A stretch of 42,605 nucleotides of DNA from a virus, in the IMG/VR virus record IMGVR_UViG_3300033149_004289, positions 1-42,605 of that record. One strand, written 5' to 3'. Positions 2,445-38,678 of this stretch are shown one piece after another (positions within the stretch are counted from its first letter, which is position 1; each line of letters opens with the position of its first letter). The notes under the pieces are model-generated. The model saw only the letters and a program-made list of their open reading frames with translations, was not told where the DNA came from and made no database searches. The translations under genes and the position numbers were made by a program.

Positions 2445-2706
2445 GATTATAGATTTTTATAGTGATAGTTGTGTCCCTTGCAAGAGGGTTGATGAACATT
2501 TAAAGAATATTATTGATAAATATGATTTCATTGAACTTGAAAAAGTTAATGTTGATAATGAAACGCATCCATTAATGAATTTGGTTACAGCATTGCCTAC
2601 GTTGGTTGTCTTAGATGAAGGTGGTAATATTATTGAAACAATTGTTGGGGCTTTGCCTTATAACAAGTTACGAGGGGAATTGTTAGGGGCTGCTAATGAA
2701 AGTTGA
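2434..2706 (+). CDS. Thioredoxin-like protein (90 aa)
   Basis: Thioredoxin fold: I-I-D-F-Y-S-D-S-C-V-P-C-K at residues 5-17 gives the redox-active CxxC (C13-V-P-C16), and the cis-proline loop is seen as A-L-P-T-L-V-V-L. It is slightly shorter than bacterial thioredoxin and resembles phage thioredoxin/glutaredoxin-like proteins that may reduce ribonucleotide reductase or assist a polymerase. ATG at 2434 is preferred over the TTG at 2431 because AAAGGAGAGG then has normal spacing. The stop overlaps the metallophosphoesterase start at 2696. No ribonucleotide reductase is visible in the window. Confidence 0.85.
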   Translation: MKIKIIDFYSDSCVPCKRVDEHLKNIIDKYDFIELEKVNVDNETHPLMNLVTALPTLVVLDEGGNIIETIVGALPYNKLRGELLGAANES

Positions 2707-4561
2707 TAGGGATACTTGGATGAGAGCAAACGTAATATATAATGAATATTTAAGACTTGAGCATACACCAATTTCGCGAGCAAAATTGTCTAATTTACTT
2801 GGTGTTAGTGATAGATTAGCGGGGAATATTTTATTTGCTATTGAGAATAAGAATATATTAAAATTTGATCCAGAGATATTTTCAACAAGCCATTCTACTG
2901 TTGAATTATGTTTTGGTGATGTACATATTCCTTTCCAGGATGACCTTGCTATCCAAACGATGTTTGGATATTTGGAAGAAAATAATATTATCCCCAATAT
3001 TATTATTATTCTTGGGGATTTGATAGATTTTTATAAAATATCTTCGTTTGTTAAAGACCCTAAAAAAAAGAGTGTGAAAGAAGAAATTGATTTAGCAAAG
3101 AAATTTCTATATGATTTACGTGAGTATTTTCCTGATAGTAAGATTGTTTATAAAAATGGGAATCACGAATGTGTTACGTGGGATACAGAAATATTGACTA
3201 AAGATGGTTGGAAGTTGGCTAATGATATTACCCAAGATGATGATGTCGCCCAGTTTAATTTAGATACTGGGGTTATATCTTTTGCCAAACCTATTAAAAT
3301 AAGCAAATATGATGTTGATAAAACCGTTACAGTTAAGACTAATCAAGGGTTGGAAAAGGTTACATTAAATCATTCTTTGGTTGTTGATAATAAGAGGGTT
3401 AAAGTTAGTGATATAATGCAGAATGGGTTTACTCAGTTGCAACAGCGGTTTGCTGGGGATTTAGCGATAGAATATCGTGGTAAGTTGAATTATTCTGATG
3501 ATTATTTAAGACTATTAACATGGGTTATAATGGATGGAACTTGGTGGATAGCAAGCGAAGGCAAGATGAGAGTCCAGTTTAAATTATCAAAACAGAGAAA
3601 GATAGAGTCTTTAAAAAGACTTTTAAAGAGATTAAATATTCCATATACGTTTAAACCAGCAACAAAATGCAAGATGAATAAGTTACAACCTTATATGATA
3701 AGAATATATGGCAAGTATGCAAGAAAGATTATCAATGATTTGAATAGAACGAAGGAATTCCCGAGAGATTGGGCATTTAAATTGACTAAAAAACAATTAT
3801 TGTCAATTGTTGAAACTATTGGGGCAACTGATGGGAGGCAACATTATAATCATGTAGTATGGACATCGATTAGTAAAAACAATATTGATGTAATTCAGTT
3901 GGCTTGTGTATTTAATGGAATACCTTGTAAATATACTAAAGTAAAGCATAAAGGTGGATTTAAGAGTGATAAACAACTATATAGGGTTAGCATTTACCCA
4001 AATGGTTTGTTTTCTTCGCATGCAAGTTTTTCTGTTGCAAAGGAACCTGATACGGTTGTTGCTATTACAATGCCTAAAGAAACTTTGATAACCCGTGTAG
4101 ATGGCCGTGTAAATTTTACTGGCAATAGTAGAATGCAAAAGTATTTAATATCACAAGCAAAAGAAATTTATGATTTGGTTGAGGATTTACTTCAGGAAAA
4201 ACTTAATCTTAAAGAATTGAATATTGAATACAAAATAGTACCGTTTAAGATTGGGAACTTGTGGCACTTGCACGGGCATGAGAAAGCAGGTGGCAGTTAT
4301 AATCCTGAGTATATTACCAATGTAATGTGGAAATATATTCATGATAATTTTATTGTTGGGCATTTTCATAGAACGCAGGAGAAGATATTTAAGAGAATAG
4401 ATGGGAGAACGTATTGGGGGGGGGCGGTAGGTTATTTAGCGGGTGAGATGGAGTATGCGATTCTTAATAATTGGTCACAAGGTTTTGCGATTATTAAGTA
4501 TGATGATAAAGGTAATTTTAGGGCGGAACTTAAAAAGGTATATGATGGAAATGTATATTAG
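2696..4561 (+). CDS. Metallophosphoesterase interrupted by an intein (621 aa precursor)
   Basis: The host protein has an N-terminal helix-turn-helix-like segment (about residues 8-55) and a calcineurin-like metallophosphoesterase domain. The metal-binding motifs appear in order: G-D-V-H (74-77), G-D-L-I-D (107-111), G-N-H-E (155-158), then after the intein H-L-H-G-H and G-H-F-H. Residues 159-477 are an intein inserted directly after the catalytic G-N-H-E, so the precursor should be inactive until splicing, which would rejoin G-N-H-E to S-R-M-Q-K-Y-L, the normal family sequence. The spliced enzyme would be about 302 residues. Phage relatives are proposed to act on DNA ends or nucleotides; the substrate is unknown. 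ATG overlaps the thioredoxin stop. Confidence 0.9.
   Translation: MKVDRDTWMRANVIYNEYLRLEHTPISRAKLSNLLGVSDRLAGNILFAIENKNILKFDPEIFSTSHSTVELCFGDVHIPFQDDLAIQTMFGYLEENNIIPNIIIILGDLIDFYKISSFVKDPKKKSVKEEIDLAKKFLYDLREYFPDSKIVYKNGNHECVTWDTEILTKDGWKLANDITQDDDVAQFNLDTGVISFAKPIKISKYDVDKTVTVKTNQGLEKVTLNHSLVVDNKRVKVSDIMQNGFTQLQQRFAGDLAIEYRGKLNYSDDYLRLLTWVIMDGTWWIASEGKMRVQFKLSKQRKIESLKRLLKRLNIPYTFKPATKCKMNKLQPYMIRIYGKYARKIINDLNRTKEFPRDWAFKLTKKQLLSIVETIGATDGRQHYNHVVWTSISKNNIDVIQLACVFNGIPCKYTKVKHKGGFKSDKQLYRVSIYPNGLFSSHASFSVAKEPDTVVAITMPKETLITRVDGRVNFTGNSRMQKYLISQAKEIYDLVEDLLQEKLNLKELNIEYKIVPFKIGNLWHLHGHEKAGGSYNPEYITNVMWKYIHDNFIVGHFHRTQEKIFKRIDGRTYWGGAVGYLAGEMEYAILNNWSQGFAIIKYDDKGNFRAELKKVYDGNVY
3170..4126 (+). 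mobile_element. Intein with LAGLIDADG homing endonuclease (319 aa)
   Basis: The inserted segment begins with Cys in C-V-T-W-D-T-E-I-L-T, the classical splicing block A. It has a block B-like V-T-L-N-H-S (His at intein residue 68) and ends F-T-G-N before a Ser nucleophile in the C-extein. Between the splicing blocks lie two degenerate LAGLIDADG motifs, L-L-T-W-V-I-M-D-G (115-123) and L-L-S-I-V-E-T-I-G-A-T-D-G (210-222), both keeping the metal-binding Asp, so the endonuclease may still be active. The penultimate residue is Gly instead of the usual His, a known but less common variant. Boundaries follow from restoration of the host motif. Confidence 0.9.
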
Positions 4562-32345: not shown

Positions 32346-32927
32346 TTATTTTTGTTTAAAACATAAAAAATAATACTCAAATTCATATCCTTCTATTTTG
32401 CCGTCTATCCTAACAATAGGATAGGAGTCAGAAAGATTTAAATATAGTTTCTTAAATATTAATCCTTTGATTTTACTAAGCTCAACTATATGCTTGTGGT
32501 TAAAACAATGATATTGGTAAATTGTCATTAATAATTTATCTATTGGATAAGCAGATATTAAGTAATAAGAAGAAATATCAATTTGTTTAGGAAATTTTTC
32601 TTCATTTAGAATAACAGATTTCCAATCAGGATATCTAATGCCGGATTTTTCTAATTCTATCGCTGGTATTATATTTCCAGCGACCCCCATATTTTCTATT
32701 TCTTGCTTCCCATTTGGAAAACCTACGTTATTAATATCAAGTAGCATATTCTTCTCCATTTCTTGATTCATTACAGCCGTGTTTATTTTTACCACAACCA
32801 TCCTTTTCCCATCCGTTGCTATTATTTTTTTATTTTCTAATAAGGCATATTTACAAGCTTCGTTATAATCATCTTTTTTATTAGTACAAATTCTAAGTAA
32901 TTTCAATAAATTCTTTTTTGCTTTCAT
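32346..32927 (-). CDS. Sliding clamp-like (DnaN-related) protein, short form (193 aa)
   Basis: Contains A-T-D-G-K-R-M-V-V-V (residues 37-46), matching the A-T-D-G-H-R of beta clamps, and R-Y-P-D-W-K-S-V-I, matching the clamp motif Y-P-D-Y-x-x-V-I. Bacterial DnaN has about 366 residues in three domains, so this has at most one and a half domains and would need to oligomerise or act as a modulator of the host clamp. Start at 32927 with AAGGAGGGAAAT; the upstream in-frame ATG overlaps a micropeptide gene. No phage polymerase is present. Confidence 0.55.
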   Translation of the reverse strand: MKAKKNLLKLLRICTNKKDDYNEACKYALLENKKIIATDGKRMVVVKINTAVMNQEMEKNMLLDINNVGFPNGKQEIENMGVAGNIIPAIELEKSGIRYPDWKSVILNEEKFPKQIDISSYYLISAYPIDKLLMTIYQYHCFNHKHIVELSKIKGLIFKKLYLNLSDSYPIVRIDGKIEGYEFEYYFLCFKQK

Positions 32928-32941
32928 ATTTCCCTCCTTAC

Positions 32942-33019
32942 CTATTCTTCTACAAACAAGAAAAGCAATATATAGCATATTACAAATAATTCCACCCAGA
33001 AAAACCAGTTTTCTTGCAT
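32942..33019 (-). CDS. Membrane micropeptide at the head of the replication operon (25 aa)
   Basis: ATG 33019 is preceded by TTAAGGAGGTATTT, one of the strongest ribosome binding sites in the window, and follows the candidate promoter at 33049-33077. The peptide is one hydrophobic helix (L-F-V-I-C-Y-I-L-L-F-L-F-V) with W and F residues at its N-terminus and an acidic end. Being first in the operon, it will be highly expressed. Function unknown. Confidence 0.55.
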   Translation of the reverse strand: MQENWFFWVELFVICYILLFLFVEE

Positions 33020-33157: not shown

Positions 33158-33218
33158 AAAAAGAGGCAAGGCTTAACACCTTACCTCTAAAAAAAAAGGC
33201 AAGGTCTAATGCCTTGCC
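33150..33218 (-). terminator. Tandem intrinsic terminators of the accessory operon
   Basis: On the minus strand, GGCAAGG-N7-CCTTGCC (33218-33198) is followed by nine T. A second hairpin, AGAGG-AAGG paired with CCTT-CCTCT with one internal mismatch (33188-33162), is followed by a seven-T run. Together they insulate the accessory operon from the replication operon. Confidence 0.85.
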
Positions 33219-33229
33219 CCTTTGATTTT

Positions 33230-33622
33230 TCATTCCCAAACTGTCGGAAAACCTGCTTCTTTCCAGGCTTCCCAAATTTTTTCTTCATTAACTTTTCTTT
33301 CAATTTTTGCCCATTTTATTTCATCTGTAGAAGGATCGCGGCCACAAGTAACTATTTCTTCTACAAAATCATTTAACTTACCGTTACTTGTCGTAACGGT
33401 AAGAGAGTTTCGGCAGGAAAATAATCCAGTTTCTCTAGCTTGCTCTTCGCTTAAGATAAAAGATACATCACTCTTTATCCCATCTATTTCCCCTTGTATT
33501 TTTCCAAGGGGGAGATTTATTTTTAATTCCTCTCTTATTTTATCTACACCTTCAAGCCCTATCTCTTCTTGGTTTAGAGAGATAGCAAATCCATAGTTGA
33601 AAAACCTTATTCTAAAATACAT
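33230..33622 (-). CDS. Hypothetical accessory protein (130 aa), hairpin-rich gene
   Basis: The start at 33622 follows AAGGAGGGTGGT; an open frame continues upstream but without such a site. Product: M-Y-F-R-I-R-F-F-N-Y-G-F, an acidic middle, a Cys-Arg motif (L-F-S-C-R-N-S) and a C-terminal helix rich in E, K and W. The coding DNA holds perfect stem-loops, for example 33377-33403 (11-bp stem, 5-nt loop), 33490-33511 and 33559-33585. G+C is visibly above that of neighbouring operons. Not recognised. Confidence 0.65.
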   Translation of the reverse strand: MYFRIRFFNYGFAISLNQEEIGLEGVDKIREELKINLPLGKIQGEIDGIKSDVSFILSEEQARETGLFSCRNSLTVTTSNGKLNDFVEEIVTCGRDPSTDEIKWAKIERKVNEEKIWEAWKEAGFPTVWE

Positions 33623-33719
33623 ACCACCCTCCTTGAATTTTTTGGCTCGCCGTTGCCCCAGGTTGCCAAGCCCAGGGACGGTTGGTGTGAAGGAAGGAGC
33701 ACCAACCACTCCGTTTGTG
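33623..33719 (-). repeat. Intercistronic stretch with 8-bp hairpin
   Basis: Between the 33720 and 33230 genes, GGTTGGTG (33680-33687) pairs with CACCAACC (33700-33707) across a 12-nt loop. The stretch is GC-richer than typical intergenic DNA here. No T-run follows. Confidence 0.5.
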
Positions 33720-33998
33720 TTATAACTCCAGATTGCCAAGCAATTTAACATCTGAAGTATAACTCTTGCTACCACTTCTGCGAACGTAGCCGTATGTTCG
33801 CAGAAAGTGATACCACTTCCTGGCTACGAAGTTGTCCACATCGTGCCCATTCAGTGCGTCTACAGGAGTATTTTCAAGCAGGAATGCGATGATATGCACT
33901 TCCTGCTTCCAGTCTGGCAAGTCCGCTTTACGTAGCCGGACTCGCCCGGAATAGTAGTGCTTCCAGACATGAAGCACTACCTTCTCTGCCCATTTCAT
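33720..33998 (-). CDS. Hypothetical basic protein, possible helix-turn-helix (92 aa), hairpin-rich gene
   Basis: Ribosome binding site AAGGAGGTTAGTA. The protein has K-W-A-E-K-V-V-L-H-V-W-K-H-Y-Y-S-G-R-V-R-L-R-K-A-D-L and ends W-Y-H-F-L-R-T-Y-G-Y-V-R-R-S-G-S-K, basic and aromatic, suggestive of DNA or RNA binding. The gene contains four strong inverted repeats: 33776-33805 (10 bp), 33876-33908 (9 bp), 33920-33942 (6 bp) and 33954-33980 (10 bp), plus an alternative pairing of 33785-33791 with 33822-33828. Confidence 0.6.
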   Translation of the reverse strand: MKWAEKVVLHVWKHYYSGRVRLRKADLPDWKQEVHIIAFLLENTPVDALNGHDVDNFVARKWYHFLRTYGYVRRSGSKSYTSDVKLLGNLEL

Positions 33999-34049
33999 TA
34001 CTAACCTCCTTATTATAGATTTATAGATTTTAAAGATAAATATAAATGC

Positions 34050-34080
34050 AGTAGGGGTTAAGCCCCTACTTGATTTTTTA
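34050..34080. terminator. Intercistronic hairpin, terminator-like on the plus strand
   Basis: AGTAGGGG-TTAAG-CCCCTACT (34050-34070), followed on the plus strand by TGATTTTTT. On the minus strand, the direction of the genes, the T-rich tail is weak. It could stop antisense transcription more than operon transcription. Confidence 0.5.
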
Positions 34081-34836
34081 GTCTACGTTCCCATCTGTCG
34101 GGAACGGATGGGACAGGAGTAAAGCTTGTCCCTTGTCTAACCACCCATGATAAGTGGAGTGATCGTAAGAGACTATAAAAAATTCTCCTGCTTCATTATT
34201 ATTAATTATAATAACTTCATTATCTTTTTTAATTCGTAGAAAATTACCTCTTCTAACTACTAATTTGTGATTAAAGAGCACAACTGATCGCTCTTCAATC
34301 AGAAATTCATCAGCATTTAGTGAAACATCTTTTAATTCCCCAAAAGTCAAAGATAAACTTCCCTGACTTTCTTTTTTATTCTCATCCCAATTTACGCAGT
34401 TTTTTATTTCGAGAAAGCTTTCTGATCTTTCTCGATACAAATCTCTTGTTTTTTTTAAATCAAAAATGATGAATTCTTTATAACGATGTAGATTCTTCCA
34501 CAAATCTACATCGTCAACAGCACACCAGCCAATTCCCAATATAGCTGGTTTTTTGAACGAAAAGATGTACTCTTTAAGTTCATCTGACCGCCCTCGAGGA
34601 AGCGGGAATTTCAACCCGCTTCCTGTTTCATAAATAGTCAACTCCCCCATGAGAGAGTGATCTACCAGAACTGAAACCGCTTTTTCAGTTTCTACCGAAA
34701 AAAGCGGTTCGTACGGACTATTGTTTAGCCCGAATGCGGCAGGCTTAAAGAAGTAATAGCATCCACTCCTTCTTGAACTTCCCAGCCTACGAATTATTCT
34801 CGTAGGCTTCTCAATAACTTGTACCAAATCTCTCAT
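34078..34836 (-). CDS. Hypothetical accessory protein (252 aa), hairpin-rich gene
   Basis: Ribosome binding site AAGGAGGGTATT. No recognised domain; the C-terminal half is beta-rich (S-V-V-L-F-N-H-K-L-V-V-R-R-G-N-F-L-R-I-K) and the N-terminus basic (R-I-I-R-R-L-G-S-S-R-R-S-G). Perfect inverted repeats in the coding DNA include 34086-34106, 34343-34370, 34410-34434, 34484-34513 (11 bp), 34597-34624 (10 bp), 34669-34690, 34675-34709 (11 bp, overlapping the former) and 34784-34808 (9 bp). About 34150-34280 is free of them. The protein reading frame is intact across all. Confidence 0.65.
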   Translation of the reverse strand: MRDLVQVIEKPTRIIRRLGSSRRSGCYYFFKPAAFGLNNSPYEPLFSVETEKAVSVLVDHSLMGELTIYETGSGLKFPLPRGRSDELKEYIFSFKKPAILGIGWCAVDDVDLWKNLHRYKEFIIFDLKKTRDLYRERSESFLEIKNCVNWDENKKESQGSLSLTFGELKDVSLNADEFLIEERSVVLFNHKLVVRRGNFLRIKKDNEVIIINNNEAGEFFIVSYDHSTYHGWLDKGQALLLSHPFPTDGNVD

Positions 34837-34874
34837 AATACCCTCCTTAAGTTTTTTTGTTTTCTTGCTTCCTC

Positions 34875-35207
34875 TTATTCCTCGTAAGGCACTTTAGGAT
34901 ACACCTCAAGTGCCCATTTTTTCACCAATTCTCTCGCTTCATCGTATGAGGAAGCGAGACAAAAACCTCGCACCTCCCTTGAGCCTTCATGCTCATTAAA
35001 AAAGTAGGGACACACACGATTGTCTGAAGTAGGTAGCTCGTGAGCACAACACTCACTCCAGCAGTCTTCCAGATCCTCTTCCATGATCTGAAGGGCTGTT
35101 TTCCTGTCAAAAGCCCTCTTGACTGAGACGATAAGCCCATCATCCCAGCCAAAATCACGGGAAAAATTCCCGTAACCTTCGAAATAAAAGAATTTTTGTT
35201 TTAACAT
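34875..35207 (-). CDS. Hypothetical Cys-containing accessory protein (110 aa), hairpin-rich gene
   Basis: Ribosome binding site AAGGAGGGTTCT. An acidic protein with four Cys (E-D-C-W-S-E-C-C-A-H-E-L, R-V-C-P-Y-F, G-F-C-L-A-S-S); the C-x3-CC-x-H and later Cys could bind a metal, but spacing is not that of a known zinc finger. Inverted repeats: 34888-34914 (7 bp), 34932-34959 (9 bp), 35070-35090 (6 bp), 35092-35117 (6 bp) and 35157-35173 (7 bp with 3-nt loop). Not recognised. Confidence 0.6.
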   Translation of the reverse strand: MLKQKFFYFEGYGNFSRDFGWDDGLIVSVKRAFDRKTALQIMEEDLEDCWSECCAHELPTSDNRVCPYFFNEHEGSREVRGFCLASSYDEARELVKKWALEVYPKVPYEE

Positions 35208-35240
35208 AGAACCCTCCTTTTTTTATAATGTCTAAATATC

Positions 35241-35347
35241 AAAAAAAAAGACGGTCTACAAGCAAGAGTATGTACTCTCGCTTGCAGACCGCCGTCTGCG
35301 TGCCGGCCGTGCTATTTGTTATCCGCCGCACGGCTGGCGGTTTTTTT
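35241..35347. terminator. GC-rich bidirectional terminator / structured element
   Basis: On the minus strand an 18-bp stem (35253-35270 with 35273-35290; two positions are G-U in RNA) is followed by GTC and nine T, a strong terminator. On the plus strand an 11-bp stem (35302-35312 with 35328-35338, one wobble) is followed by GG and seven T. Between them CAGAC-CGCC-GTCTG adds a third stem. With three stacked stems and high G+C it could also be a structured RNA that regulates read-through inside the accessory operon. Confidence 0.75.
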
Positions 35348-35723
35348 ACTTACACCACTTTTGTAACCACTCGGGGGTATCTTCCGAGTGGTACTGTTTG
35401 AAATTAAATCTAAGCTCCGCGAAGGAGCTCTTTTTTCTCAGAAAAGCCCCTATTGTGTGAGACAAATTTTCATGTCTCACGCACTCCATTCGCAACAAAG
35501 CCAAGAGGACATCAATTGTCCTCTTTGATATCTCCAGTTCCTCACCTGATTTACTCAGCCAAGCGAGGAACTCTTCTGCGATAGAGGGGATATGATCCCC
35601 TCCGTCAACAGGATAGTCACTGAACACTCCTTTTTCCCTCCCGCCTTGTTCAATGACAAGGTCGGTAACCATCCCCACGTAGGGATGGCCTGAATCCCAT
35701 TTTTTAATATAAATTTTCACCAT
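35346..35723 (-). CDS. Hypothetical accessory protein (125 aa), hairpin-rich gene
   Basis: Ribosome binding site AAGGAGGCTGTT. No recognised domain; the middle is helical (I-A-E-E-F-L-A-W-L-S-K-S-G-E-E-L-E-I-S-K-R-T-I-D-V-L-L-A-L-L). The most hairpin-dense gene of the window: 35366-35392 (9 bp), 35413-35429 (6), 35457-35480 (8), 35503-35525 (9), 35536-35572 (8), 35584-35602 (8 bp, 3-nt loop), 35644-35661 (6) and 35669-35688 (7). The stems follow each other with few gaps and have unrelated sequences. Confidence 0.65.
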   Translation of the reverse strand: MVKIYIKKWDSGHPYVGMVTDLVIEQGGREKGVFSDYPVDGGDHIPSIAEEFLAWLSKSGEELEISKRTIDVLLALLRMECVRHENLSHTIGAFLRKKSSFAELRFNFKQYHSEDTPEWLQKWCK

Positions 35724-35785
35724 AACAGCCTCCTTATATGCATAGTAATCCCTTTACTGAGGGAACAGATTCCAGCAGAACAGGA

Positions 35786-35965
35786 TCATTTATATCCTGC
35801 CCGCCTGTAAACCCCCGCCAAGGTGGGATGGCCGTCGGTTGCCTCCCACTCTTCTCGGTATGCTTTTGCCATACCGAGAGTGATCCATTCTTGCGGAGTC
35901 AGCCCGTCGAAGTGACGAGCCAACTCCATCAACATTCTCTCTTTTCTTATATAACTTGCCTCCAT
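35786..35965 (-). CDS. Small hypothetical protein (59 aa), hairpin-rich gene
   Basis: ATG 35965 follows AGGAGGGTGTT and the frame is intact to TGA at 35788-35786. Product begins M-E-A-S-Y-I-R-K-E-R and contains L-T-P-Q-E-W-I-T-L-G-M-A-K-A-Y-R-E-E-W. A longer open frame on the plus strand here has no ribosome binding site. The gene contains a 9-bp stem (35854-35878, extendable to 11 with wobble), and its stop lies beside the stem CAGGAT/ATCCTG (35781-35799). Confidence 0.6.
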   Translation of the reverse strand: MEASYIRKERMLMELARHFDGLTPQEWITLGMAKAYREEWEATDGHPTLAGVYRRAGYK

Positions 35966-35974
35966 AACACCCTC

Positions 35975-36484
35975 CTATGCAAATTGATTAAACATTGATA
36001 AAGTCTCTCTTGATTCGTGCTTGTTTCTATAATCATAAGTACTCTTTATACTACGTTTAGATGTGAAACCCATTGTGAATCTTATTATATCAAGATTGGA
36101 TTCTATTAATCTTTTATTTGTTTGAATAGTTACTGATAATTTATTAGAAATTTCTTTTATCTTCTCTCTAATGACCAGGATCTCATTTACAATTTCTTCA
36201 GGAAAATAATTTACTATATCCGAAAGTTTTATAGAAGGATCAAAACCAAAAATATTAGAAAGTAAAAACACAGTATCCCTTCTTTCCTTTTCAAGTGTAT
36301 CAATGTATGACACAATCTCTTCCTCTACAGAATTTATGCGATTTAACGCTTTTAAATCCACATCTTTTAATGCATCATACTTACAAAGCTCAATTTCATA
36401 CAATTGAGAAAGATTGTCTAATTCTTTTTCAAGTAATACCTTAAACTTTTCAACATATGTAGTTGTACTATCTTGCATTTTCAT
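35975..36484 (-). CDS. FlgN-like flagellar export chaperone (169 aa)
   Basis: Helical throughout with the FlgN layout: a first helix (F-K-V-L-L-E-K-E-L-D-N-L-S-Q-L-Y-E-I-E-L-C-K-Y-D-A-L), the segment V-D-L-K-A-L-N-R-I-N-S-V-E-E-E-I-V-S-Y-I with L-E-K-E-R-R, a Leu-Ser turn (I-K-L-S-D-I-V), and a last helix N-K-R-L-I-E-S-N-L-D-I-I-R-F-T-M followed by S-T-Y-D-Y. In bacteria FlgN holds the hook-filament junction proteins FlgK and FlgL before export. As first gene of the accessory operon it may titrate these proteins or alter motility. Composition is AT-rich and not hairpin-rich, unlike the genes after it. The identification is by pattern and should be confirmed by profile search. Confidence 0.65.
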   Translation of the reverse strand: MKMQDSTTTYVEKFKVLLEKELDNLSQLYEIELCKYDALKDVDLKALNRINSVEEEIVSYIDTLEKERRDTVFLLSNIFGFDPSIKLSDIVNYFPEEIVNEILVIREKIKEISNKLSVTIQTNKRLIESNLDIIRFTMGFTSKRSIKSTYDYRNKHESRETLSMFNQFA

Positions 36485-36525: not shown

Positions 36526-36555
36526 TTTATAGATGCAATTACCGTGCCAACTCAA
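36526..36555 (-). promoter_or_regulatory. Candidate promoter of the accessory operon
   Basis: On the minus strand TTGAGT (36555-36550), an 18-nt spacer and TATAAA (36531-36526) precede the leader hairpin and the FlgN-like gene. The -35 is imperfect. It is the only reasonable sigma70-type site close to the gene. Confidence 0.4.
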
Positions 36556-36833
36556 TCCTTGTGAAACCTGTAACTTGTGTAAATATAAGCAGTATAACGA
36601 GATAAAAATTTTAGTAAATTTTAAATGCACAGTTATGCACGCACTATTTTGTATGCAATTTGCACAAAATGCACACACAAGTATTGCAGTGTTTGCAAGT
36701 GTCTGTATGTGTTTAGTTGTGTATCTACCTATATATATGTTATATGTACGAATAGTTTTTTAGTTAGCCCTTTTGTATGCAAGTTGTATATATATGCAGT
36801 TTGAGTATATATACAAGTTGTATATATATATAA

Positions 36834-36865
36834 GTTGAGGGTATGAAATTTGCCATACCGCTCAA
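36834..36865. repeat. 12-bp imperfect stem in the control region
   Basis: TTGAGGGGTATG pairs with CATACCGCTCAA around an 8-nt loop, with one mismatch. It lies between AT-rich GTATATATA repeats and the TGTGTCA operators. Confidence 0.55.
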
Positions 36866-36877
36866 CCTATTTTCAAC

Positions 36878-36912
36878 TGTGTCAAAATGACACAGTGTGT
36901 CAAAATGACACA
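36878..36912. promoter_or_regulatory. Two tandem copies of the operator TGTGTCA-AAA-TGACACA
   Basis: Identical 17-bp palindromes at 36878-36894 and 36896-36912, centres 18 bp apart. TGTCAA half-sites recur three times at 38633-38659, just before the terminase genes; the last is an exact TGTGTCA. A stem ACTGTTATA/TATAACAGT follows at 36913-36937. Likely binding sites of a dimeric regulator or initiator. Confidence 0.65.
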
Positions 36913-37091
36913 ACTGTTATACGTAGAATATAACAGTCACAACATAAGCAACAACAAGCAACAACAGCATATACAGCAAGCATGCAGCAACAAAACACTA
37001 CTTATTACAAAAACTCAAAAAGCAAAAAAAATCTAAAAAAATTTTTCACACAACAAAAAAACACACAAAAACACACTCCCAAAATCTACAA

Positions 37092-37133
37092 GTGTATACA
37101 AAAGTATACACCCAACTGTATACAAAGTATACA
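37092..37133. promoter_or_regulatory. Paired GTATAC operators
   Basis: GTGTATAC-AAAA-GTATACAC (37092-37111) and TGTATAC-AAA-GTATACA (37117-37133). Two near-identical palindromes side by side, with an A-only centre, suggest cooperative binding of a dimeric protein. Confidence 0.6.
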
Positions 37134-37189
37134 ATTTTCCTATGCACAATACTCTATGTGCAAAATGCACAATTATGCACTGTGCAATT

Positions 37190-37204
37190 GTTAACTCAGT
37201 TAAC
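37190..37204. repeat. Palindrome GTTAACT-C-AGTTAAC
   Basis: A 15-bp perfect palindrome in the control region, preceded by several TGCAC/GTGCA motifs (37144-37188). Possible regulator site. Confidence 0.4.
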
Positions 37205-37424
37205 CTAAAGGTTGACAATCCAAAAATCAAGTATCCAACAAGCAATATTGAACTGCACAAACAGTATTACACAAGTATATACACCACAAGTATTTACAGA
37301 AGAGTAAAAAGGAGGGGGTATAACCAAAGTGTATACTTAAAGCTTTATATAAAACGTTATATAAACCCCCACGCTAACACAACATAAAACACTCAAGCTA
37401 TATATAACTACACAAAGTTACGAA

Positions 37425-37531
37425 CCAGGCTATATACCAAGGATCATACCAAAAGCAGCAAACAAGGCTTAAACACTACTTAAAAACTACCTAGAAACAG
37501 GCTAAAATAAGACTTAAAAACAGGCTAAAAT
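37425..37531 (+). repeat. Iteron-like direct repeats (core CAGGCTA)
   Basis: AAACAGGCTAAAAT occurs exactly at 37495-37508 and 37518-37531 (23 bp apart, about two helical turns). Shorter copies with CCAGGCTA lie at about 37425 and 38557. Direct repeats at helical spacing near AT-rich DNA resemble initiator-binding iterons. Confidence 0.45.
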
Positions 37532-37772
37532 TAAAGGTTCTAAAAAAGGTAAAATTATAGGTTTTATAACTTATTGCTATATAAAAACTTACAACAAAAG
37601 GTTTTAAAAACACTATGTTTTAAGGCATAGTTTAAGGTTTAAATCAATAAAATATACACAAGCAGGGTATAGAAACCGCCAGGGAAAGCGAGAGAGGCAA
37701 ATTTTAAGGGTTTTAAACACTAAAACCTCAAAAATCAAGGTTTACAATAAAACCACTATAAAAACATAAGTA

Positions 37773-37810
37773 TTGTGAATACTCTCACAATCTTGTGAAA
37801 TTTTTCACAA
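37773..37810. promoter_or_regulatory. Two operators TTGTGA-N6-TCACAA, matching the late-promoter operator
   Basis: Copies at 37773-37790 and 37793-37810, with centres exactly 20 bp apart, so on the same DNA face. The second doubles as a possible -35 box: TTGTGA, 17 nt, TAGACT (37816-37821). The same motif overlaps the promoter at 5043-5071. Confidence 0.65.
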
Positions 37811-37930
37811 GCAGGTAGACTATTATTAAGTGTTCAGCATAGCCAGCTGGATAATAAGACTAAGCTCGGAGCAAAAAGACATCTTAGTTATTTAAAATTA
37901 GTCATTAAGCAAGAATGTATTGACTACGGA

Positions 37931-37955
37931 GATATCTTGTAATTTACAAGATATC
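37931..37955. repeat. 25-bp palindrome with 12-bp arms
   Basis: GATATCTTGTAA, one T, TTACAAGATATC. The arms are perfect. With a 1-nt centre it is more likely a protein-binding or cruciform site than a terminator. Confidence 0.6.
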
Positions 37956-38082
37956 TATTGTCTAATAAGCCATATTATTATACACTCTGTCTTTATGACT
38001 CTTTTTTATAACTTTATTAATCTTAACTATGCTTGTATTAAGTTGTACTATAAACCATAAAATAGCTATATACTGAAGGTTA

Positions 38083-38123
38083 TATATAATATATAATATA
38101 TAATATATAATATATAATATATA
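38083..38123. repeat. 7-bp tandem repeat TATATAA (five copies plus partial)
   Basis: Five uninterrupted TATATAA units followed by TATATAG. A tract this AT-rich melts easily and could serve as a DNA unwinding element; slippage is also likely. Confidence 0.7.
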
Positions 38124-38238
38124 GCTTAATATATAAGCTTAGTATTTTAGTAAAGCTAAAGTAGTTTTTTTAGTAGAGCTGAAGTAGTATTATAAATCCT
38201 TATAGAGTATAGCTAAAGTAGTATAACGGATTTACAGT

Positions 38239-38287
38239 CTTATTACACCTTATAGGGTTTAACTACGAAGTATAACGGTGTAATAAG
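38239..38287. repeat. 11-bp stem with 27-nt loop
   Basis: CTTATTACACC (38239-38249) pairs perfectly with GGTGTAATAAG (38277-38287). GTATAACGG occurs before and inside the structure. Part of the control region. Confidence 0.5.
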
Positions 38288-38423
38288 CCTGAATAATAAT
38301 ATTTATATATAAAATATACTAGCTGAGTATTAAGTTTATATATAATATATACTTAACCTATAGTTAAACCAAGAGTTATAATTAAACTGTCAGTAAACTA
38401 AACATCTAAACCAATGCTTAAAA

Positions 38424-38494
38424 AAGTTAGTCTAAACTAACTTATGCACAATTTTTGTGCATTGTATCAAGTATAGATTTTGCTTACAGCAAAA
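38424..38494 (+). promoter_or_regulatory. Three consecutive stem-loops upstream of the terminase genes
   Basis: AAGTTAG/CTAACTT (38424-38443), ATGCACAA/TTGTGCAT (38444-38462) and TTTTGC/GCAAAA (38478-38494) follow one another. None has a T-run, so they are not terminators; they may be a leader RNA structure or protein sites. Confidence 0.4.
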
Positions 38495-38678
38495 ACTATG
38501 CCAACTTTACAATGACAGTGAAAACTTTGTATAAAACATGAGAATGATATACAATAACCAGGCTAATAACTATAGGTTACAAGGTATATAAATCATGGTA
38601 GTAAAAAGTGTGTTAATTTGCCTTGAAAACTATGTCAAAACTGGTGTCAATTGTGTCAATAATTGATATGCCTAAAAT

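Follow-up and report, generated by a model that had tools for sequence, protein, structure and literature searches.

The window analysed here is the whole of a 42.6 kb virus record with ~31% GC, which comes from a dsDNA phage. Its structural genes form a podovirus-like set (SU10-type portal, terminase and tail fibres), and the phage also encodes a DnaB helicase, a RusA-like resolvase and P0009 (30019-30816), which we take to be a Rad52-like annealing protein from a recognised motif together with a weak PHROG match. No close relative of the phage was found in any collection searched, the best terminase match being 34% and the best DnaB match ~30%. A series of leftward genes runs from 36.5 kb to 27.1 kb, beginning beside a 2 kb non-coding region (36.5-38.6 kb), and genes 2-7 of this series (P0006, P0001, P0003, P0002, P0004 and P0005, in that order) make up a block rich in hairpins, which from its position is probably an early operon, transcribed leftward. 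The GC content of the block is 42%, compared to 31% for the phage. The block is known from one uncultivated genome record. The features of the block and its flanks are as follows.

35975-36484, minus strand: upstream neighbour P0008, 169 aa, FlgN-like coiled coil (Pfam FlgN, 5e-12; fold z 0.6)
35786-35965, minus strand: ORF P0006, 59 aa, with AGGAGGG upstream; first hairpin at 35895-35927 (fold z -5.4)
35346-35723, minus strand: ORF P0001, 125 aa, 8 scored hairpins
35249-35340, minus strand: intergenic 11 bp hairpin, then a 20 bp near-perfect hairpin with a T run (fold z -7.95; terminator scan)
34875-35207, minus strand: ORF P0003, 110 aa, 6 scored hairpins
34078-34836, minus strand: ORF P0002, 252 aa, 11 scored hairpins (fold z -6.9)
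34597-34624, minus strand: example of a perfect hairpin within P0002, 10 bp, loop 8
34483-34514, minus strand: example of a perfect hairpin within P0002, 12 bp, loop 8
34050-34070, minus strand: intergenic 8 bp hairpin after P0002 (fold and terminator scans)
33720-33998, minus strand: ORF P0004, 92 aa, 6 scored hairpins
33680-33707, minus strand: non-coding 8 bp hairpin between P0004 and P0005
33230-33622, minus strand: ORF P0005, 130 aa, 4 scored hairpins; start at 33622, the mechanical ORF extending to 33775
33377-33403, minus strand: example of a perfect hairpin within P0005, 11 bp, loop 5
33158-33222, minus strand: paired terminator-like hairpins at the end of the block (fold z -6.78; terminator scan)
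32346-32978, minus strand: downstream neighbour, RusA-like resolvase gene, with a weak structure excess (fold z about -2; -2.2)

The strong, terminator-like 20 bp hairpin occupies 35249-35293 in mid-block. On the same strand no clear promoter lies behind it, and a promoter scan gave matches no more frequent than chance. The position of this hairpin inside the block suggests regulated read-through, antitermination or attenuation. Within P0002, two overlapping perfect stems of 8 and 11 bp at 34669-34709 are mutually exclusive, in the manner of an attenuator. None of the six block proteins has a significant Pfam, PHROG or NCBIfam match. A single-sequence structure model of P0003 (pLDDT 70) suggests a beta-beta-alpha arrangement occurring twice, with all fold matches to the model insignificant, and the AlphaFold model of P0002 (pLDDT 33) gave no usable fold.

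Upstream of the block, P0008 is the first gene of the leftward series and its match to FlgN, a flagellar chaperone family, exceeds the family cut-off; this may be a coiled-coil coincidence or may mark a flagellum-directed phage protein. Beyond it, ~2 kb without convincing genes (36530-38600) separates divergent gene sets and carries many short direct repeats and palindromes, including tandem TGTGTCAAAATGACACAG at 36878-36912, GTATAC repeats at 37089-37133 and an ATATATA array at 38082-38123, and the region looks like a control or origin region. At the other end of the window, a 621 aa protein encoded at 2696-4561 has metallophosphoesterase-type matches to phage proteins of Rheinheimera, Klebsiella and mycobacteria.

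A preliminary description of this DNA had listed 19 inverted repeats in the block, and all 19 were recovered at the positions given, although some stems are 1 bp longer than described and the repeat at 35536-35572 consists of an 8 bp perfect outer stem around a 21 nt loop, extended by G-U pairs. The repeats had been placed in coding DNA, which holds for all of them except the intergenic 33680-33707. The excess itself was correctly recognised and its size underestimated, stems with G-U pairs having gone unlisted (for example 35895-35927, 35119-35152, 33246-33273 and 34343-34370). When imperfect stems are included, the block contains 32-43 hairpins, or 11.7 per kb, 18x the density in shuffled DNA.

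The claim that these stems lie far above chance was borne out, as codon-preserving shuffles did not reproduce a similar stem density. Perfect stems, defined as at least 8 bp with a loop of 3-15, number 17 in the six coding sequences, compared to 1.4 in synonymous shuffles and 0.46 in codon shuffles (sums of per-gene means). Scored hairpins number 38 in the same sequences, compared to 14.6 +/- 3.0 after synonymous shuffling (maximum 23 in 150 trials) and 9.1 +/- 2.8 after codon shuffling (maximum 18). The sense-strand folding z-scores of the six genes against synonymous shuffles are -3.5, -6.6, -6.9, -4.7, -5.0 and -5.4. The structure excess is confined to the six-gene block, with sharp limits at the neighbouring genes: elsewhere in the window we found 0.4-1.5 scored hairpins per kb, versus 11.4 in the block. 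In a small survey for similar blocks (~812 kb of further viral and bacterial loci), no single kb held more than 4 perfect GC-bearing hairpins, versus 9 in the block. The stems are unrelated in sequence, as had been proposed, an 8-mer being shared in only 6 of 406 hairpin pairs; a repeat search returned mainly RBS repeats and no sequence common to the hairpins. We therefore rejected a dispersed palindromic repeat family of the RPE or REP/BIME type, and Rfam covariance models gave no match at gathering score.

The hairpins are absent from the places where ribosomes would load. None of the 181 nt within -15 to +15 of the six starts lies in a hairpin, compared to a region-wide coverage of 46% (35% with a stricter cut). 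There is no coverage between -40 and +9, after which it climbs steeply, from 3% at +10 to +19 through 20% at +20 to +29 and 60% at +30 to +39 to 92% at +40 to +49; judged from the coordinates, the first hairpin of each gene begins 18-38 nt past the A of the ATG. None of 5000 random re-orderings of hairpins and gaps gave zero overlap with the starts (0.28% did so with the stricter set), and simple rotation of the hairpins gave it in 0.7%. The P0003 start is overlapped by one weak G-U helix (35186-35218). An initiating 30S subunit needs single-stranded mRNA around the start, which matches the hairpin-free stretch seen here. The exempt start regions are our main evidence that the structure belongs to mRNA. 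In E. coli mRNAs, the region upstream of starts is generally open (PMC4619774).

The reading we prefer, at a probability of about 0.5, is that the six-gene block has been selected for local mRNA folding into near-continuous hairpins, with only the ribosome-binding and start regions left single-stranded. Selected mRNA structure is favoured because the excess survives shuffles that keep both protein and codon usage, and structure in mRNA, among the readings offered in the preliminary description, is favoured because all six start regions are exempt and because the folding resembles that of RNA phages. The transcript would fold locally throughout except at the ribosome loading sites, and ribosomes would load at each open start codon and unwind the hairpins while translating. 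A transcript folded in this way could be protected against ribonucleases that act on single strands, or against RNA-targeting defences of the host such as interference nucleases and toxin RNases, a benefit that we put forward tentatively; slower translation and fewer R-loops are other candidates. It is a more doubtful proposal that the block is a phage counter-defence achieved through codon choice, an RNA-phage-like mRNA armour in one accessory operon that exposes only its starts and works generally against RNases or RNA-targeting defence. A motif-avoidance scan for a particular RNase found nothing strong. RNase E is also able to cleave A/U-rich stretches left unpaired after a stem (PMC4619774), and the hairpins therefore need not stabilise the transcript.

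Selection for folding alone need not give the surplus of perfect stems over RNA phages (6.9 per kb versus 0.56 and 1.42 in MS2 and Qbeta). Fold-back template switching in DNA synthesis, perfecting near-palindromes in weakly constrained genes while stems at start sites were purged, would yield stems this perfect (9% mismatched pairs, versus 17-19% in MS2 and Qbeta), with unrelated sequences and in all three codon registers (13/11/7), yet we regard it as unlikely given what the arms themselves look like. The codon-usage fit is -4.48 and -4.52 for the arms, -3.91 for the linkers and -3.69 for the phage, and the 5' and 3' arms differ in their departure from phage usage by 0.000 +/- 0.156, both being worse than the linkers. 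Since the arms depart equally, copying with a fixed direction, from one arm to its partner, is disfavoured, as only one arm should then be odd; had the direction been random, we estimate that the average departure should be milder. In addition, the stems are GC-richer than their surroundings, which is not a product of copying: scored stems have ~53% GC and linkers 35%, although the scoring itself favours GC, and perfect stems, unweighted, average ~50%. Simple fold-back copying, which had been offered alongside mRNA structure, is thus disfavoured by the codon usage of the arms and by the GC-rich stems, and it gives no reason for a restriction to six genes.

Structure at the level of DNA, in which single-stranded hairpins or cruciforms would serve recombination or replication, perhaps via the adjoining RusA-like resolvase, has a still smaller probability. 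Both strands fold equally well, and a RusA-like gene lies downstream with the Rad52-like P0009 nearby. On both strands G-U helices are more frequent than chance predicts (11 versus 2.1 sense, 8 versus 1.1 antisense), and the G-U to A-C ratio in the stems, 20:10, matches that of shuffled sequences, 69:32. MS2, where RNA folding is certain, is also unbiased (16:17 for the pairs, 8 versus 7 for the helices), so this strand test lacks the power to decide between RNA and DNA. The combined sense-minus-antisense energy difference slightly favours the sense strand, to a degree also seen in MS2 and Qbeta. A role in DNA would give no reason for all six start regions to be exempt; in addition, the rest of the genome is free of such stems, and looped stems of 8-12 bp make poor cruciforms. 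We infer that the sense mRNA is the molecule that folds.

Rather improbable, too, is a recent capture of the block from some other element built this way throughout, such as one with an RNA genome or one from a thermophile, with the structure inherited and not needed. The sharp boundaries, the orphan proteins, the raised GC content and the RNA-phage-like folding would all fit such a history. Against it, codon positions 1 and 2 outside the stems look native (GC 0.43/0.31, compared to 0.41/0.30 in other phage genes; third positions are GC-richer, 0.35 versus 0.22), and the stems therefore look superimposed on ordinary phage genes. Nothing similar was seen in two AT-rich phage records, one with a thermophile host (L053) and one with a methanogen host (L054). 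No RNA-phage protein was recognised, and we rejected a Leviviricetes-derived segment after finding no maturation, coat or RdRp match among the six proteins in Pfam, PHROG and NCBIfam.

We give little credence to the in-frame insertion of short, sequence-diverse hairpin elements, with an outcome like that of Rickettsia palindromic elements or byps. GC-rich hairpins against an AT-rich background are what insertion would leave behind, but the hairpins share no common sequence and their lengths are not restricted to multiples of 3. They also lack the in-frame stops of bypassed inserts: no stop codon occurs in ~263 hairpin codons (chance ~1e-6), and so the hairpins in the block appear, from their codons, to be translated. 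An assembly or sequencing artefact is very improbable, for although a single uncultivated record with no second genome would suit one, six open frames with RBSs and unrelated hairpins are hard to obtain from fold-back reads or misassembly.

We also searched for relatives of the operon, using proteins of the window and one conserved segment as queries, and recovered none. No homologue was found among viral contigs with patterns of P0001, P0002 and P0005 or among genome contigs with a pattern of P0003, such scans reaching close relatives only, so that low-identity homologues may exist. In tblastn searches, no homologue of P0001, P0002, P0004 or P0006 was found in phages, nor of P0003 in plasmids, and P0002 had no homologue in 393 genomes. 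One weak match to P0002 (L027), presumably a DUF262-type protein when inspected by eye, was judged to be chance. Segments of P0009 are 61-64% identical in one viral contig and two Brevinematales-type genomes, which may be a weak hint of the host; a hairpin cluster was found in none of the loci reached through P0009 (17 viral, 2 Brevinematales-type). The small hairpin cluster at 34.2-34.9 kb in MW202795, the nearest terminase relative, was set aside as largely intergenic and terminator- or origin-like.

Pervasive folding of coding RNA is already known from RNA genomes; here folding of equal strength, with the starts spared, is seen within a single operon of a DNA phage, and in the limited open-access literature we found nothing describing such a block in a DNA phage. 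If the mRNA reading is true, the block would allow structure in the service of a genome to be told apart from structure in the service of a message. Its six genes offer a clean test object for relating hairpin tiling to decay, translation and escape from RNA-cutting defences, and hairpin density could become a simple statistic with which to find such operons among unclassified phage genes.

Among known systems, several place hairpins in early phage transcripts or within genes. The RNase III hairpins of the T7 early operon, like those of the block, lie in an early phage transcript. T7 RNase III sites are few and intergenic, and the T7 genome as a whole, unlike the block, has no hairpin excess (1.5 per kb, 0.9x shuffled); by the same measure lambda has 3.6 per kb (1.8x) and phiX174 2.4 (2.2x). 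The T4 gene 60 bypass and the mitochondrial byps share with the block hairpins inside coding sequence, whereas the block hairpins have neither in-frame stops nor a repeated element; we rejected translational bypass elements of either kind, as all frames are open through the hairpins. Rickettsia palindromic elements and REP/BIME sequences are likewise palindromes, the Rickettsia ones inside genes, as in the block, but they form families of repeated copies whereas the block stems are unrelated. The RNA virus genomes for which a pervasive folding-energy excess in coding RNA has been described (Simmonds 2004, as cited in PMC6563262) resemble the block in having such an excess without conserved sequence, and differ in that the block takes up only 33.2-36.0 kb (2.7 kb) of a DNA genome. 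The Leviviricetes MS2 and Qbeta, like the block, carry dense local hairpins in coding sequence far above codon-preserving shuffles: by one measure MS2 has 7.9 hairpins per kb (3.0x shuffled), Qbeta 8.3 (4.6x) and the block 11.7 (18x), and fold z divided by the square root of length is similar, at about 0.15-0.44 in the six genes and 0.27-0.33 in MS2 and Qbeta coding stretches. In contrast, theirs are RNA genomes that fold for packaging, replication and regulation, while the block is one operon of a dsDNA phage, without RNA-phage genes.
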